From a bacterium (GTDB taxonomy: Bacteria > ARS69), in the NCBI GenBank assembly GCA_025774865.1, contig JALGZO010000031.1, positions 1 through 5,764 on the forward strand: 5,764 bases of DNA, in the 5' to 3' direction. A model generated the notes under the pieces. It did no database searches and had not been told where the DNA came from. It worked only from the letters and a program-made list of their open reading frames with translations. Below, piece after piece: positions 382 to 5,764 of the stretch. The position numbers and the translations under genes are program-made. Every line of letters starts with the position of its first letter. Within the stretch, counting starts at the first letter, position 1.

Positions 382-981
382 ATGAAGCTTTTCGCGACGA
401 TTATCGCCACACTTTCCGTAATGTTGATGCTGGTGCCGAGCAGCGCCAGCGCAGCAGATTTCCAATACGGCTGGACGATTAGCAACAGCAACGCCAGTCC
501 GTTCTCGAACAGCGGTGCCCCGCAGGGCGGCGGCCTTCTTACCTTGTACCTGTGGCTCGAGTGCGTCACGAAGGACGGCGTGGCGTCCGCGGAGTTCGAT
601 CTCGCCGTCGGCGCCCCGAATAACATCCTGGCCTTCACCGCCATGAACGGCTTCCTGAACGCCGGAGGCGCGACGAACCTCCTCCTCGCTGCGACCGGAT
701 GCCCGGGTGACGGGGATCCGGCGATCCCGATCGTCGCGGGGAGCATTCTCGCACTGGACTTCGGTGGCGAGTACTGCATCGTCAACTCGGCGACCAACAA
801 CCGGAACGTGTCGGTCGACTGCAGCCAGACCGATCCGCAGACTCACCCGAACAAGACCACCGGCTATTCGTCTCTGGGCGGTCCGCCAGCGTGCGACGAC
901 CGGGACATCAACGACATGCTCTGCGTCCCCACGTCGGTGGACGCGTCGAGCTGGGGTCAGGTCAAGGGCCTGTACCGGTAG
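382..981 (+). CDS. secreted protein of unknown function with C-terminal SWGxVKGLYR motif (paralog 1)
   Basis: The 199-residue protein has a clear Sec signal peptide: basic start MK, a hydrophobic core at about residues 4-18, and an A-S-A site with predicted cleavage after A24. The start is supported by GGAGG at 371-375, six bases before ATG. The mature part resembles no family I can name. It shares an ordered set of blocks with the gene at 1326: W-T-I-S-x-S-x-A-S-P-F (31-41), Y-L-W-L-x-C (56-61), D-G-x-A-S-A-E-F-D (65-73), F-L-N-A-G-G (91-96), G-C-P-G (106-109), P-I-V-A (116-119), V-D-C-S (145-148) and a terminal S-W-G-Q-V-K-G-L-Y-R (190-199). Cysteines 61, 107, 147 and 181 align with all four cysteines of the paralog. 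C132 and C171 are extra, so disulfides in the periplasm or outside the cell are plausible. Alternating hydrophobic and polar stretches suggest a beta-rich fold (inference). It is monocistronic with its own terminator. The export call is firm; the role is unknown. Confidence 0.9.
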   Translation: MKLFATIIATLSVMLMLVPSSASAADFQYGWTISNSNASPFSNSGAPQGGGLLTLYLWLECVTKDGVASAEFDLAVGAPNNILAFTAMNGFLNAGGATNLLLAATGCPGDGDPAIPIVAGSILALDFGGEYCIVNSATNNRNVSVDCSQTDPQTHPNKTTGYSSLGGPPACDDRDINDMLCVPTSVDASSWGQVKGLYR

Positions 982-1033
982 ACGATCGGCCGGTGCGCCG
1001 CTCGACCGCCGTCTAGCGACGCGGTTGAACTCC

Positions 1034-1065
1034 GAGGGTCCCCCTGCGGGGGGCCCTCTCTTTTT
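1034..1065 (+). terminator. Rho-independent terminator of paralog 1
   Basis: GAGGG (1034-1038) pairs with CCCTC (1054-1058), T1039 wobbles with G1053, and five C (1040-1044) pair with five G (1048-1052) around a TGC loop. The resulting 11-bp stem is followed by TCTTTTT (1059-1065). It lies 52 bases after the stop codon. Confidence 0.9.
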
Positions 1066-1222
1066 GTCTCCCACTTCCTCGTGCTCTTTCATTCTTGTCT
1101 TCGCACTTTTTGCGGTTCTTGGCGCTTTTTCACACCCGCGCCGCCCGTTCCTGCGGCGGCTGGAAGCCGCTTGTTCTCTAGGAAAAACGGAAGGACGACA
1201 TCGAAAAACGGAGAGGGGGGGG

Positions 1223-1250
1223 TTGGAAACCCCTAGCCGATTCTGTTAAT
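1223..1250 (+). promoter_or_regulatory. possible sigma70-type promoter for the second secreted paralog
   Basis: TTGGAA (1223-1228) and GTTAAT (1245-1250) are 16 bases apart and each matches consensus at 4/6. Transcription would start near 1257 and leave a leader of about 70 bases. The -35 box overlaps the right arm of the GGGGTT hairpin, so the two readings of this DNA compete. Weak evidence. Confidence 0.25.
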
Positions 1251-1314
1251 CTCATGGAGGTTCAGGGGGGCGTCACGACTACGTCTCCTTGGGTATCGTC
1301 GGATTCCGATATTC

Positions 1315-1320
1315 GGAGGA
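1315..1320 (+). promoter_or_regulatory. ribosome binding site that fixes the start at 1326
   Basis: GGAGGA lies five bases before ATG 1326. The in-frame ATG at 1254 has only weak support, and starting there would bury the signal peptide behind 24 residues. The first bases of this site are also the right arm of a small hairpin, TCCGA-TAT-TCGGA (1305-1317), that could mask it. Confidence 0.8.
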
Positions 1321-1325
1321 CTTCC

Positions 1326-1901
1326 ATGAAGCGTTCGATTACGATCTTCGCTCTGATCGCGGTTCTGGCCCTGCCGGCCGGTGCCCTCGCCCAGGCGCCG
1401 TACGCATGGACAATCAGCGCCAGTACCGCGTCGCCTTTCGTGAATACCGCGCAGCCCACGGGAACGCTCGCGACCTACTACCTGTGGCTGGCGTGCACCG
1501 ACCTTCCCGCCGGTTACGAAGACGGCATGGCGTCGGCCGAGTTCGACATCGTCACCAGCCCGCCGAACTCGCACATCGCGACCGTCATGATCAATCCGCC
1601 GTTCCTGAACGCGGGCGGCGTCGCCAATCTGTTGATCGCCGCGGGAGGCTGCCCGGGCGGTCCGATCGTCGCGGCGAACCTGCTCGTCCTTTCCGTGGCG
1701 CCGGGCACGATGGATTTCGCGCCTTCCGCCGCGAACGGCAACAAGGTCACGGTGGATTGCAGCCTGGACCCGGTGACGTGGCCGATGGACTGGGTCGGAC
1801 TGGGCATCGGAACTGAGCCGAACGGCAAGGGCTCCGCCGACTGTGGCCCGGTCTCCGTCGAGAAGAACAGCTGGGGCGCCGTCAAGGGCCTCTACCGGTA
1901 G
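1326..1901 (+). CDS. secreted protein of unknown function with C-terminal SWGxVKGLYR motif (paralog 2)
   Basis: The 191-residue protein starts with a Sec signal peptide: MKR, a hydrophobic core at about 5-18, and A-L-A with predicted cleavage after A22. It is a diverged copy of the gene at 382. Shared blocks are A-W-T-I-S-A-S (27-33), Y-L-W-L-A-C (52-57), D-G-M-A-S-A-E-F-D (66-74), P-P-N (79-81), P-F-L-N-A-G-G (92-98), N-L-L (101-103), G-G-C-P-G-G-P-I-V-A (107-116), V-D-C-S (143-146) and C-G-P-V-S-V (173-178). It ends in S-W-G-A-V-K-G-L-Y-R (182-191), which is exactly the C-terminus. Its four cysteines (57, 109, 145, 173) all have counterparts in paralog 1, so two conserved disulfides are possible. 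The main differences are an insertion at about 60-65 and a shorter segment between the third and fourth cysteines. The family is not recognised and no catalytic motif is seen. It has its own leader and terminator, so it is probably transcribed independently of paralog 1. Confidence 0.9.
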   Translation: MKRSITIFALIAVLALPAGALAQAPYAWTISASTASPFVNTAQPTGTLATYYLWLACTDLPAGYEDGMASAEFDIVTSPPNSHIATVMINPPFLNAGGVANLLIAAGGCPGGPIVAANLLVLSVAPGTMDFAPSAANGNKVTVDCSLDPVTWPMDWVGLGIGTEPNGKGSADCGPVSVEKNSWGAVKGLYR

Positions 1902-1924
1902 CTCAGTTTGTCAACTCGAGTTTC

Positions 1925-1957
1925 AGAGGGTCTCTCGCGAGAGGGGCCCTCTTTCTT
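1925..1957 (+). terminator. Rho-independent terminator of paralog 2
   Basis: AGAGGG (1925-1930) pairs with CCCTCT (1947-1952). Inside it CTCT and AGAG (1932-1935 with 1940-1943) pair around CGCG, and a TTTCTTT-type tract follows. The outer stem and following tract resemble those of the terminator after paralog 1, while the inner stem differs. Confidence 0.85.
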
Positions 1958-2006
1958 TGTTTCTCGGTGAAGCGGCGGTGGCGGGGGAGCGGCCGGGGGG
2001 ACGAGG

Positions 2007-2629
2007 CTAGAACGTGCCCGGCATCACGACCCGGAGACCATGCACGAGGAGGCGCTCCGCCTTCATCAGCTGGCGGGCGTGAAACGGCTCGTCCGACGAG
2101 TTCCAGAGGAACACGCCGGCACCGGGTCGATCGATCGGCCGCGGCTGTTCCGGGTCCCCAGGACGTCGACCATGTCCTCGACTGCCCAGGTGTCGGGGCG
2201 AGTCTTGTCGAGCTCGCTCCAGACGTCCTTGAACCCGAGCAAAAGCTCCTGAATGTCGTGCAGCGCCGCTCCGTGGCGGAGGATGTTCTTGATCACGCGT
2301 TCTGCCTCGGGGAGCTCCTCGAAATCGCTCACCAGGTGGCGTTTGGGGGCGCGGCCGCGCTTGCGCATGGATTTGGGCAGGAACTCCAGACAGGTGTCGA
2401 TCCCCTGCTGCCCGAGCCACCGGAAGCCCGCCTTGATGGGTCCTCCGTCGTACCCCACCGTCCAGGCCGCCGCGTAGTCGTCGGGCGTGGCCCCGGAGCC
2501 GGGCGGCGTCCAAGGCGGATCCACCTTCCCGAAGCGGGAGAGCTGGTAGATCTCCTTGGGGAGCGGTTGCTCGAGAAACGCCTCGACCAGCTCGTGCGTG
2601 GTCTTGTACAGCGTTCTGGATCCAGCCAA
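2007..2629 (-). CDS. protein of unknown function, about 207 aa, interrupted by one apparent frameshift
   Basis: Read on the minus strand from a TTG start at 2629 with a strong Shine-Dalgarno, the first 158 codons give an ordinary soluble protein. It has helical stretches (E-L-V-E-A-F-L-E, residues 13-20), a P-P-W-T-P-P-G turn (38-44), a V-G-Y-D-G-G-P-I-K-A-G-F core (58-69), a basic patch (86-97) and a helical region to about residue 140. Past residue 158 this frame becomes an R/S/T/P-rich tail and stops at 2066. The neighbouring frame instead gives a well-composed tail, G-V-F-L-W-N-S-S-D-E-P-F-H-A-R-Q-L, and stops at 2007. The two halves join cleanly if one base is added to the CCCC run at 2156-2159, giving V-D-V-L-G-D-P-E-Q-P across the joint and 207 residues in total. 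There is no signal peptide or membrane segment, so it is probably cytoplasmic. I recognise no family. It may be a pseudogene, or intact with a sequencing or assembly error. It converges on paralog 2 and diverges from thiC. Confidence 0.65.
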
Positions 2630-2636
2630 CTGGGGT

Positions 2637-2645
2637 CCTCCTCCT
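2637..2645 (-). promoter_or_regulatory. ribosome binding site that selects a TTG start
   Basis: On the minus strand AGGAGGAGG lies seven bases before TTG (2629-2627). The same frame is open upstream to an ATG at 2758. Those 43 codons are rich in G, P and R and look like untranslated DNA, so the TTG is preferred. Confidence 0.7.
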
Positions 2646-2845
2646 GGCGCGGGTGGGGTCCCGATGGGGGATCCCGGAGCACCACCGGCGCGATTCCAGA
2701 GGAGCGAGAGGGCTGGTTGCCTCTGAATCAAGATCCCACGGTCCGGCCGGCGAGGCAAGGGCGAAGAACGGGAATCCGCAGGTCCCCGCCCTCGGACGGC
2801 CGAGGAACGCGTTTCCTGGACCGTAGGGCCCCAATCCCCTAGATT

Positions 2846-2867
2846 CGGAGCGCTAGGGCGCTTTCCG
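2846..2867 (+). other. small stem-loop in the thiC leader
   Basis: CGG (2846-2848) and AGCGC (2849-2853) pair with GCGCT (2858-2862) and CCG (2865-2867) around a TAGG loop, with a two-T bulge. It ends five bases before the thiC Shine-Dalgarno (GGGAGGA, 2872-2878). The rest of the 254-base divergent spacer (2630-2883) shows no other structure I can support. In particular, no thiamine pyrophosphate (TPP) riboswitch was recognised. Confidence 0.35.
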
Positions 2868-2883
2868 AGACGGGAGGAACATC

Positions 2884-4347
2884 ATGTCGACGGTGCAGGA
2901 AGGGGCGGCCGCCTCGATTTCACGGGACCAGGGGCCCGGGTACGGCGATCTGGACGCCATGATGCCCGATGAGCCGCGGAGGGCGGCGTGGGTCGCCCGC
3001 CGTCGCGACGACCCGGTCCGCACCCAGATGCATTACGCCCGGCGGGGCACCGTCACGGAGGAAATGTGGGTCGTAGCGCAGCGAGAGGGGCTCGATCCGG
3101 CGTTCGTGCGGGACGAAGTGGCGCGGGGGCGAATGATCGTCCCGGCGAACGTGGGGCACGTGAACCTCGTGCCGATGGGAATCGGCATCAACGCCCGCTG
3201 CAAGATCAACGCGAATATCGGCAACTCGGCGTTGACCTCCGACGTCGAGGGAGAGCTCGAGAAGCTACGCCGCGTCGTGAAGTACAAATCCGACACGGTG
3301 ATGGACCTCTCGACCGGCGGCGGGATCGACGAGATCCGCCACGCGGTCATCGCCCACAGTCCGGTCCCGGTGGGGACGGTGCCGATCTACCAGGCGATCC
3401 AGAAGGTGAAGAAGCCCGAAGATCTCACGGCCGACGGTCTCGTCGAGATGATCCGTCACCAGGCGGAGCAGGGCGTCGACTACATGACAGTTCACTGCGG
3501 CATTCTGCTGAAGCACCTGGGGCTCGTGGATCGTCGGATCACGGGAATCGTCAGCCGCGGCGGCTCGCTCATGGCCATGTGGATGCTGGCGCACCGCCGC
3601 GAGAATCCCCTCTACGAACGCTACGACGACATTCTCGAGATCTGCCGACGGTACGACGTGAGTCTGTCGCTCGGTGACAGCTTGCGTCCCGGTTGCCTCC
3701 ACGACGCGTCCGATCGCGCCCAGTTCGCGGAGCTCGACGTGCTCGGCGAGTTGACGCAGCGCGCTTGGGAGAAGGACGTGCAAGTGATGGTCGAAGGGCC
3801 GGGACACGTTCCGATGGACCAGATCCCGATGAACATCGAGCGGCAGATCGAGGTTTGCCGGGAGGCGCCCTTCTACGTGCTCGGTCCCCTCGTGACCGAC
3901 GTCGCTCCCGGCTACGACCACATCACGTCGGCGATCGGCGCCGCGATCGCGGGACAGCACGGAGCCGCGATGCTCTGTTACGTGACCCCGAAAGAGCACC
4001 TCGGACTCCCGAAGGCCGATGATGTGCACCAGGGAATCATCGCGTACCGCGTCGCCGCGCACGCGGCGGACGTCGCGAGAGCGCGCCCGGGAGCGCGGGA
4101 CTGGGACGACAAGATCTCCCGCGCGCGATACACCTTCGACTGGAACGAGCAGTTCGCGCAGTCGATGGATCCCGAGGTCGCCCGCGCGATGCACGACGAG
4201 GATCTCCCACACGAAGCCTTCAAGACGGCGGAGTTCTGCTCCATGTGCGGCCCGAAGTTCTGCTCCATGAAGATCTCCCAGGCCGTCGACGAGTACAACG
4301 CGAAGATCAAGAGTGGGGAGGCCGAGGAGACTCAGACGGTCGGCTAG
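2884..4347 (+). CDS. thiC: phosphomethylpyrimidine synthase ThiC (HMP-P synthase), short form
   Basis: This radical-SAM enzyme of thiamine biosynthesis converts aminoimidazole ribotide to 4-amino-5-hydroxymethyl-2-methylpyrimidine phosphate, releasing formate and CO, in the cytoplasm. The 487-residue protein carries the family blocks in order: M-H-Y-A-R near residue 50, N-A-N-I-G-N-S (109-115), M-D-L-S-T-G-G (140-146), G-T-V-P-I-Y-Q (164-170), V-S-R-G-G-S (223-228), [11 protein letters not shown] (260-270) and E-G-P-G-H (304-308). It continues with A-P-G-Y-D-H and K-E-H (370-372), then C-S-M-C-G-P-K-F-C (452-460). The last is the unusual C-terminal CX2CX4C that binds the [4Fe-4S] cluster. H308 and H372 match the active-site metal ligands known from the Caulobacter enzyme by motif and 64-residue spacing. 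The N-terminal ThiC-associated domain of the roughly 600-residue proteobacterial form is missing, as in other short ThiC proteins. The ATG is backed by GGGAGGA six bases or so upstream. No other thi gene lies in the window. All key residues are intact. Confidence 0.98.
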
Positions 4348-4354
4348 CCGTCTG
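4333..4354 (+). other. hairpin spanning the thiC stop codon
   Basis: CAGACGG (4333-4339) pairs perfectly with CCGTCTG (4348-4354), and the TAG stop (4345-4347) sits in the loop. The loop region also contains the palindrome CGGCTAGCCG (4341-4350) as an alternative fold. No T tract follows, so this is not a standard intrinsic terminator. It runs straight into the tandem repeats and might help protect or end the transcript (inference). Confidence 0.4.
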
Positions 4355-4457
4355 CGGCGTCAACTCGCGTACCACCGCAGCGGTGTCAACCGGCGTACGC
4401 CCGCAGCGGCGTCAACTCGCGTACGCCCGCGGCAGCGTCAACTCGCGCACGCCCCCC
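4354..4457 (+). repeat. four tandem copies of a 26-bp repeat downstream of thiC
   Basis: The units are 4354-4379, 4380-4405, 4406-4431 and 4432-4457, with the pattern GCGGCGTCAACTCGCGTACG followed by CCCGCA and a few substitutions per copy. They are exactly in register with no spacers. The length is not a multiple of three, so the array would shift frame every copy and is unlikely to be coding. Each unit can fold on itself: GCGGCGT at the left end can pair with ACGCCCGC at the right end with one bulge. Units 2 and 3 also contain the palindrome GCGTACGC. No function can be assigned. Confidence 0.9.
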
Positions 4458-4480
4458 TGGAACGAGCCAGGGTCGGTGGT

Positions 4481-4510
4481 TTGCCCTCGTGAGCGCCCGG
4501 GGCGTACCAT
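4481..4510 (+). promoter_or_regulatory. possible sigma70-type promoter for the lipoprotein gene
   Basis: TTGCCC (4481-4486) and TACCAT (4505-4510) each match consensus at 4/6 and are 18 bases apart. Transcription would start near 4517, about 30 bases before the ATG. This fits a new transcription unit beginning after the repeat array. Confidence 0.3.
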
Positions 4511-4545
4511 AGGGACGTCTGTTCTCCCCCGCCGGTGGGTGCGCC

Positions 4546-5676
4546 ATGCTCTGGAAACGGATGAAGCTCGAGTTCGCGATGCTCGCGACCATCGCCGTCG
4601 CCGGCTGTGCGGAAGGCGACCGGCTCGTCGTTGATGACGGGCCCATGATCCCGACCGATGTCACGACCCCCGCCGAGGCCGTCGAGAGTCACGTGCAAGC
4701 GCTGAACTCGACGGACTACGACGCGTATCGGGCGATGCTGGAGAAACCGGACGGCTCCGCCGGCGTGGGATTTCGTTTCCACATTCGTAGCGACGACGCT
4801 GACGACTTCCCGTGGCTATCCGGGACGTCCTGGGGCTACGACATGGAAATGGAGCTCATTCACAACATGATGGATCCCGCGTACGCGGGGGTAACGCCTC
4901 CGGTCGAAGAGATCGAGATGGCGTATACGCTCCTCGACGAGCGCCCGGTGTCCGACGGTTTGGTGCGCCTGACGGTGGACGCGGACATCACCGTGCTCGA
5001 CGGCATTGATGGTTGGGTTACGAACACGAGACTCGAGATGCTCCTGGCCCGCGACTCGGACGGCTTCTACCGGATCCGATCCGTCAACGAGATGCCGATT
5101 CTGGTACCGGCCTCAGACCAGAGGCCCGAGTCCGCCAGTTGGGGAAGGATCAAGGCGCAGTATCGAAACGGATCGATTCCCGTCGATCTCGCCGAGCCTC
5201 GTTCGGTGATCGAAAGTCACGCTCGCGCGTTCAACGACAAGAATCTCGAAGCGTACCTCGCGCTTCTCGCACCCGACTTTCGATTCTACGTCCGGGACGA
5301 CGACGCGCAGGATCTCCCCTGGATCTCAGGGGATTCCTGGGGTCTCGAGGACGAGACTCGAATCATATCGAACATGATGGACCCGAACTTCGCGGGCCTG
5401 GAGGACCCGGTCGAAACCATCGAGTTCGAGTACGCCGTGATCGCCGAGCGGGAAGTGTCGGCAGACGAAGTCTGGCTGACCCTCGACGCGGACGTCAGGG
5501 TGCTCGTCTCGCCGAACAGGGGCTGGTTGGCCAACACCCGGTTCGAATTCTCCGTCGTTCGGGATTCGGACGGCTTTTTTCGCCTACGCGACATCAAAGA
5601 GAGAGCGGTCGTCATTCGGAGTGAGGAGGCGAGCTTCGGCTCGATCAAGGCCCTCTACTGGACTCGATTGCCGTGA
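4546..5676 (+). CDS. lipoprotein with two tandem NTF2/SnoaL-like domains, each ending in an S-W/F-G-x-I-K motif
   Basis: The 376-residue protein has a short basic start, a hydrophobic stretch and a lipobox V-A-G-C with the lipidated Cys at 21, so it should be anchored to a membrane facing the periplasm. Two homologous domains follow, at about 42-207 and 217-372. Each begins with an E-S-H-x-x-A-x-N-x-x-x-x-x-A-Y helix (47-61 and 223-237), then F-x-F/F-R-F-Y, D-D-A-x-D-x-P-W-[LI]-S-G-x-S-W-G (84-97, 252-266), N-M-M-D-P (107-111, 276-280), [TL]-x-D-A-D (143-147, 312-316), N-T-R-[LF]-E (160-164, 330-334) and R-D-S-D-G-F (169-174, 339-344). Each closes with the motif S-W-G-R-I-K-A-Q-Y-R (198-207) or S-F-G-S-I-K-A-L-Y-W (363-372). 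The helix-then-strands layout is that of NTF2-like domains, which often bind small ligands; no catalytic residues can be assigned. Its GGTGGG ribosome site (4534-4539) is atypical but recurs before the next gene. ATG 4561 would lose the basic residues, so 4546 is preferred. Confidence 0.85.
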   Translation: MLWKRMKLEFAMLATIAVAGCAEGDRLVVDDGPMIPTDVTTPAEAVESHVQALNSTDYDAYRAMLEKPDGSAGVGFRFHIRSDDADDFPWLSGTSWGYDMEMELIHNMMDPAYAGVTPPVEEIEMAYTLLDERPVSDGLVRLTVDADITVLDGIDGWVTNTRLEMLLARDSDGFYRIRSVNEMPILVPASDQRPESASWGRIKAQYRNGSIPVDLAEPRSVIESHARAFNDKNLEAYLALLAPDFRFYVRDDDAQDLPWISGDSWGLEDETRIISNMMDPNFAGLEDPVETIEFEYAVIAEREVSADEVWLTLDADVRVLVSPNRGWLANTRFEFSVVRDSDGFFRLRDIKERAVVIRSEEASFGSIKALYWTRLP

Positions 5677-5702: not shown

Positions 5703-5764
5703 ATGTACCGGAAACGGATGAGGCTCTTGATGCTCGCGGCCATCGCCGCGGCCCTCGGCGGCTG
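5703..5764 (+). CDS. start of a second lipoprotein paralogous at its leader to the preceding gene, 3' truncated
   Basis: Twenty codons plus two bases are visible before the window ends. The leader (M-Y-R-K-R-M-R-L-L-M-L-A-A-I-A-A-A-L-G-G, then codon TG-) is a lipoprotein signal peptide, and the cut codon would complete an L-G-G-C lipobox if its third base is a pyrimidine. It parallels the leader of the gene at 4546 in both protein (K-R-M-[KR]-L, then M-L-A-x-I-A) and DNA (GGAAACGGATGA/G, ATGCTCGCG). GGTGGGG (5691-5697) lies five bases before ATG, as in that gene. It starts 26 bases after the preceding stop with no terminator between, so co-transcription is likely. The mature part is not visible, so a shared NTF2-like fold is only inferred. 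Confidence 0.75.
   Translation, partial: MYRKRMRLLMLAAIAAALGG

Follow-up and report, generated by a model that had tools for sequence, protein, structure and literature searches.

Why should exported proteins of different folds close with the same ten residues? The question is raised by the 5764-nucleotide stretch analysed here (the window), which is the entire contig C31 of a bacterial genome, G000, assembled as 4.7 Mb in 785 contigs. The four motif segments that the preliminary description placed in three proteins all translate as claimed and at the coordinates given for them. Two form the exact C-termini of a pair of exported proteins with signal peptides, all on the forward strand: SWGQVKGLYR (949–978) ends paralog 1 (382–981, 199 residues) and is followed by the stop codon TAG at 979–981, and SWGAVKGLYR (1869–1898) ends paralog 2 (1326–1901, 191 residues) and is followed by TAG at 1899–1901. 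The remaining two lie in a forward-strand lipoprotein with the lipobox VAGC (4546–5676), which consists of two tandem NTF2-like domains; SWGRIKAQYR (5137–5166, forward strand) closes the first domain and runs on into NGSIPV, and the diverged SFGSIKALYW (5632–5661, forward strand) closes the second, with TRLP and then the stop codon behind it. We refer to this segment as the tag.

Paralogs 1 and 2 share about 47% identity. In the AlphaFold model of paralog 1, residues 29–170 form a β domain and the tag lies in a tail with pLDDT values of 51–57. The top Foldseek matches to the window paralog model are all cohesins, with modest TM-scores. Since the paralogs are cohesin-like and the lipoprotein is NTF2-like, the folds that carry the motif do differ, as had been proposed from the sequence. 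None of the window proteins has a match to TIGR04183, the type A sorting domain of the type IX secretion system (T9SS), at E ≤ 1.

The window holds several other features. The forward-strand gene at 2884–4347 is thiC, encoding phosphomethylpyrimidine synthase (NCBIfam, 684 bits); a comparison of its upstream region with Rfam gave no match, for instance to a TPP riboswitch, at the gathering threshold. Just after thiC, at 4354–4454, is a tandem array of a 26-base unit in 3.9 copies with 85% match, GCGGCGTCAACTCGCGTACGCCCGCA. On the reverse strand at 2007–2834 are two overlapping frames, LYKTTHELVEAFLEQ... and then VFLWNSSDEPFHARQL..., which have the appearance of a single protein-coding gene interrupted by a frameshift around position 2150; the 230-residue frame in this region has no Pfam or NCBIfam match.

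The copy that sits mid-chain in the lipoprotein has a simple explanation. The two halves of the protein are 47% identical, motif included, and among its relatives, both within the window's family and in other phyla, are lipoproteins with the tag or a variant of it at the end, such as SWGSVKSLYRS, SWGSIKALFR and TWGSIKAMYR. As judged from these sequences, the gene arose when a one-domain NTF2-like lipoprotein, of a kind whose relatives carry the tag at the end, was duplicated in tandem, so that the internal copy was once the C-terminus of the first half. The gene fusion suspected earlier is thus upheld in the form of a duplicated, tagged one-domain lipoprotein, but the structural cap offered beside it is not. 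That one protein has both a lipid anchor and the tag suggests that anchoring is not the tag's whole role. A further lipoprotein start, MYRKRMRLLMLAAIAAALGGC, resembling the N-terminus of the lipoprotein at 4546, is found on the forward strand at 5703–5764, where it is cut by the contig end; it is probably a tandem paralog.

To ask whether the tag exceeds chance, the motif was sought at the level of DNA with no stop codon required. The pattern WGx[VIM]Kx..[YF][RS] gave 14 matches in G000 and none in the reversed control; 13 of the 14 directly precede a stop codon, and the remaining one falls four residues short of it. A relaxed pattern gave 34 matches against 6 in the control. All of these were inspected: nearly all end 0–4 residues from a stop, signal peptides are present on most of those whose 5′ end is intact, one (L231) arises by chance within a membrane protein, and the sole genuine internal copy is that in the window lipoprotein. 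When the C-terminal pattern followed by a stop was sought in 386 genomes from about 260 families, most of them fragmented metagenome assemblies, 446 matches (the sum of the listed per-genome counts) were found in 43 genomes and a single match in the control. Seventeen genomes hold 9–56 copies each; the five genomes of the window's family hold 12–24 each, and other families up to 56. In the named scan, the tag was found in Ca. Eisenbacteria, Krumholzibacteriia, Latescibacterota, Zixibacteriota, Effluviviaceae and Coatesbacteria, among others. Signal peptides, called by a simple heuristic, precede 151 of 178 tag ORFs, and most of the others are truncated or chance ORFs. The tag is, as anticipated, in excess at the C-termini of exported proteins.

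The composition of the tag points the same way. The search pattern fixed W, G, K and R and left positions −10 and −4 free. Position −10 is nevertheless S or T in 137 of the 151 signal-peptide ORFs (91%, against a background of 14.6%; P = 6e-97), and position −4 is A, S or G in 126 of them. Chance or a compositional artefact accounts for a few matches in distant genomes, which are short spurious ORFs (L121, L125 and L147); as an explanation of the whole it is rejected by the control counts in G000 and in the 386-genome survey, and we consider it virtually out of the question. The consensus of the 151 ORFs is W at −9, G at −8, I/V at −6, K at −5, L/M at −3, Y/F at −2 and R at −1, roughly SWGxIKxLYR in short form and [ST]WGx[IV]Kx[LM][YF]R as a summary pattern. 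P-[VTI]-x-V-E is preferred upstream, giving an extended tail P-[VTI]-x-V-[ED]-x-x-[ST]-W-G-x-[IV]-K-[ASG]-[LM]-[YF]-R. In the relaxed searches SFG, SWS, a free residue at −3 and 1–4 extra residues proved to be tolerated variants. The form first given, S-[WF]-G-x-[IV]-K-[GA]-x-Y-[RW], holds for the window segments; position −3 is free in G000, and SFG and SWS variants occur at exact C-termini. The hydrophobic moment of the tag is the same at 100 degrees and 170 degrees, helix and strand periodicity being equally strong. Across families, conservation is limited to the last 10–16 residues.

Common descent, or a fold that ends in this segment, would be another reason for such a pattern. Paralogs do share the tag by descent, and it is family-wide in the NTF2-like lipoproteins. 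After removal of signal peptide and tag, however, the tagged bodies fall into 70 clusters at E ≤ 1e-3, of which 52 are singletons. Their Pfam matches include β-helix, NHL propeller, lamin-tail, cohesin, LamG, FG-GAP and cleaved-adhesin families, and their NCBIfam matches include choice-of-anchor E and J, ScyF and M36, which bear other sorting signals elsewhere. Among the matches of tagged proteins, none to a Pfam or NCBIfam model covering the tag itself was reported. In genome G001 (contig C39, L026, 976–2696), three adjacent paralogs of the window's cohesin-like proteins are circularly permuted with respect to the window protein: the segment that is C-terminal in the window proteins comes first, and the tag is still last. 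Moreover, the two AlphaFold models considered, those of paralog 1 and of a fibronectin type III (FnIII) protein described below, place the tag outside the folded domain, in paralog 1 as an unpacked tail of low confidence. The unrelated clusters, the permutation and the models contradict a single family or shared fold ending in the tag, which we regard as highly improbable; whole-protein descent, as suspected at the outset, does not explain the motif.

A clue to function comes from homologous bodies that end differently. Most of the approximately 35 members of the paralog 1 family have the tag, or a near variant of it, as their ending. Three untagged members, L266 (1438 residues), L268 (1062 residues) and L273 (380 residues), instead carry C-terminal TIGR04183 domains that exceed the cut-off of 23 bits; untagged homologs score 25.7–36.3 bits. 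At L092 a tagged gene adjoins a homolog with a sorting domain, and two more families, represented by L122 and by L106 and L078, show the same exchange of tag and sorting domain. Among homologous domains, the tag and a T9SS sorting domain were not seen together on one protein, and TIGR04183 is absent from the best 25 of 39 families matched on 116 tagged proteins. Since it occupies the position that the T9SS domain has on related proteins, the tag resembles an address label, one not described before.

The distribution of the tag across genomes agrees with this. Type A sorting domains, at least 16 per genome, are present in 43/43 genomes with the tag and 8/35 without it (P = 4e-14); in this sample, the tag is confined to genomes with T9SS sorting domains. 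SprA is found over the cut-off in 41/43 and 8/35, respectively (P = 1e-11), the exceptions among the former being G001, which is 67% complete and contains fragments, and G106. Members of the PorV family, in 5–32 copies, occur in 43/43 genomes with the tag. At the level of families, the association with T9SS is 27/27 against 8/35 (P = 2e-10). Seven genomes in the sample have T9SS and no tag. The co-occurrence is confounded because it falls within related phyla, and it is unable to separate function from shared ancestry; the exchange on homologous bodies is the stronger evidence for a link with T9SS. Since the tag and sorting domains are both abundant in the same genomes, a genome-wide replacement of the sorting domain by the tag is rejected. 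The preliminary description had looked to a specific transpeptidase or secretion gene; sorting domains accompany the tag throughout, but no dedicated partner gene was found near single-copy tags, multi-copy tags or sprA, where the neighbours were only housekeeping genes (lptFG, and rimP-nusA-infB next to sprA). As a separate observation, the SprA proteins at L204–L219 are divergent, of about 1700–2600 residues; lptF and lptG adjoin in most of these genomes, and the gene often lies upstream of rimP-nusA-infB, a synteny common to several phyla.

Many genomes with one tag carry it on a small exported FnIII protein ending in ...RTWGSIKAMFR. This protein is found in Ignavibacteria, Kapaibacteria, Bacteroidetes metagenome assemblies and cultured Hymenobacter, where five loci (L111, L124, L135, L142 and L155) encode a small exported FnIII protein ending in SWG[ST]IKSMFR. 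It occurs once per genome where full length and is absent from multi-copy genomes; it is also absent from the phylum of genome G092 altogether (0/167). The tail is its most conserved part and is almost invariant across phyla. In its AlphaFold model the FnIII domain has a pLDDT of about 95 and a separate C-terminal helix one of about 70. No conserved neighbour of its gene was found, and a PDB sequence search with the family returned generic FnIII matches only.

An invariant tail on a single-copy protein is what would be expected of a stoichiometric partner, and it could be that the tail is a docking peptide for assembly, plugging into an outer-membrane or surface receptor much as dockerin does into cohesin, with translocation by another route. 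That the tag is short and predicted to lie outside the fold, and that the window paralogs are themselves cohesin-like, would fit. Exchange with a T9SS transport domain on homologous bodies argues instead for an address signal, the tag also occurs on proteins with an N-terminal lipid anchor, for which a second anchor would be redundant, and no receptor was found; we think docking unlikely. The same exchange weighs against a periplasmic quality-control tag, in which a chaperone or protease would bind the tail and set stability rather than location. Its C-terminal position and exposed aromatic and hydrophobic residues are of the kind that such factors might recognise, but the tail ends in Arg, tolerates 1–4 extra residues and is found on only a subset of small surface-type proteins, and we hold this explanation to be very unlikely.

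Overall, the tag is non-random, C-terminal, carried by exported proteins, independent of fold and interchangeable with a T9SS domain. We favour, with a probability of about two in three, the conclusion that T9SS-bearing bacteria of the FCB group and allied candidate phyla use it as a short targeting signal at the C-terminus of exported proteins. The sorting or anchoring role suggested earlier is in this sense strongly supported by position, fold independence, permutation and interchange. Tagged proteins would leave the cytoplasm by Sec; an envelope receptor would then bind the exposed C-terminal peptide, recognition presumably following export, and direct the protein to the surface of the cell or its outer membrane. 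The tag would in this way do the job of the type A sorting domain, of roughly 75 residues, mostly on smaller proteins. That the receptor belongs to T9SS, as SprA or a PorV-family carrier, or is tied to it, is a proposal to which we give slightly less than even odds. Further points tell against this reading: the tag is a peptide of 10–16 residues and the T9SS signals known so far are folded domains of the Ig-like kind, some of the proteins with the tag are lipoproteins and so already anchored, and the tag favours neither helix nor strand periodicity. Through the tag, protein export becomes approachable in candidate phyla known from metagenomes alone, in which most tagged proteins are unannotated. 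Because one protein of cultured Hymenobacter has the same tail, the receptor can be sought directly and the tag put to the test. We found no description of the motif in the literature, in a search that was thin on subscription journals and preprints.

Among known systems, the PEP-CTERM, GlyGly-CTERM and MYXO-CTERM tags resemble this one as short C-terminal motifs on many unrelated exported proteins, and choice-of-anchor domains also occur with them. No CTERM model on the tag was reported in the Pfam and NCBIfam matches. The CTERM tags combine a motif, a transmembrane helix and a basic cluster and are cleaved by a membrane protease or sortase (PMC3237569, PMC11980579); in contrast to these and to LPXTG, the tag described here is the end of the protein, with no hydrophobic helix after it. 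Types B and C are alternative T9SS signals, type B being tied to specific PorP/SprF shuttles (PMC12618676, PMC10202324). They are domains of about 100 residues, and the tag has no such conserved domain; type B genes often adjoin a shuttle gene, whereas the search around tag genes revealed none.

The closest parallel is the T9SS type A domain (TIGR04183/PF18962). Like the tag, it is C-terminal, belongs to Sec-exported surface-type proteins and numbers dozens per genome, in the same genomes and on bodies of the same kinds. A Lys is conserved in its last strand (motif C-t, motif E), the end of which is often basic, and the domain tolerates a C-terminal extension (PMC11285876, PMC10202324). TIGR04183 is not among the families listed for tagged proteins; nearly all of their genomes have the translocon over the cut-off, and all have PorV-family carriers. 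It is conceivable, at a little under an even chance, that the tag makes up a fourth and minimal class of signal for T9SS, or linked to it: a peptide that serves hundreds of proteins across several candidate phyla and has a dedicated receptor preserved as far out as Hymenobacter. If it does feed T9SS, a peptide of roughly 10 residues can replace a folded domain, which bears on how one translocon reads different signals. The type A domain is folded, seven-stranded and about 67–108 residues long; the tag comprises about 10–16 residues with no Ig domain, has an invariant W-G...K...R and is carried by smaller proteins, with a median of 216 residues against 725.
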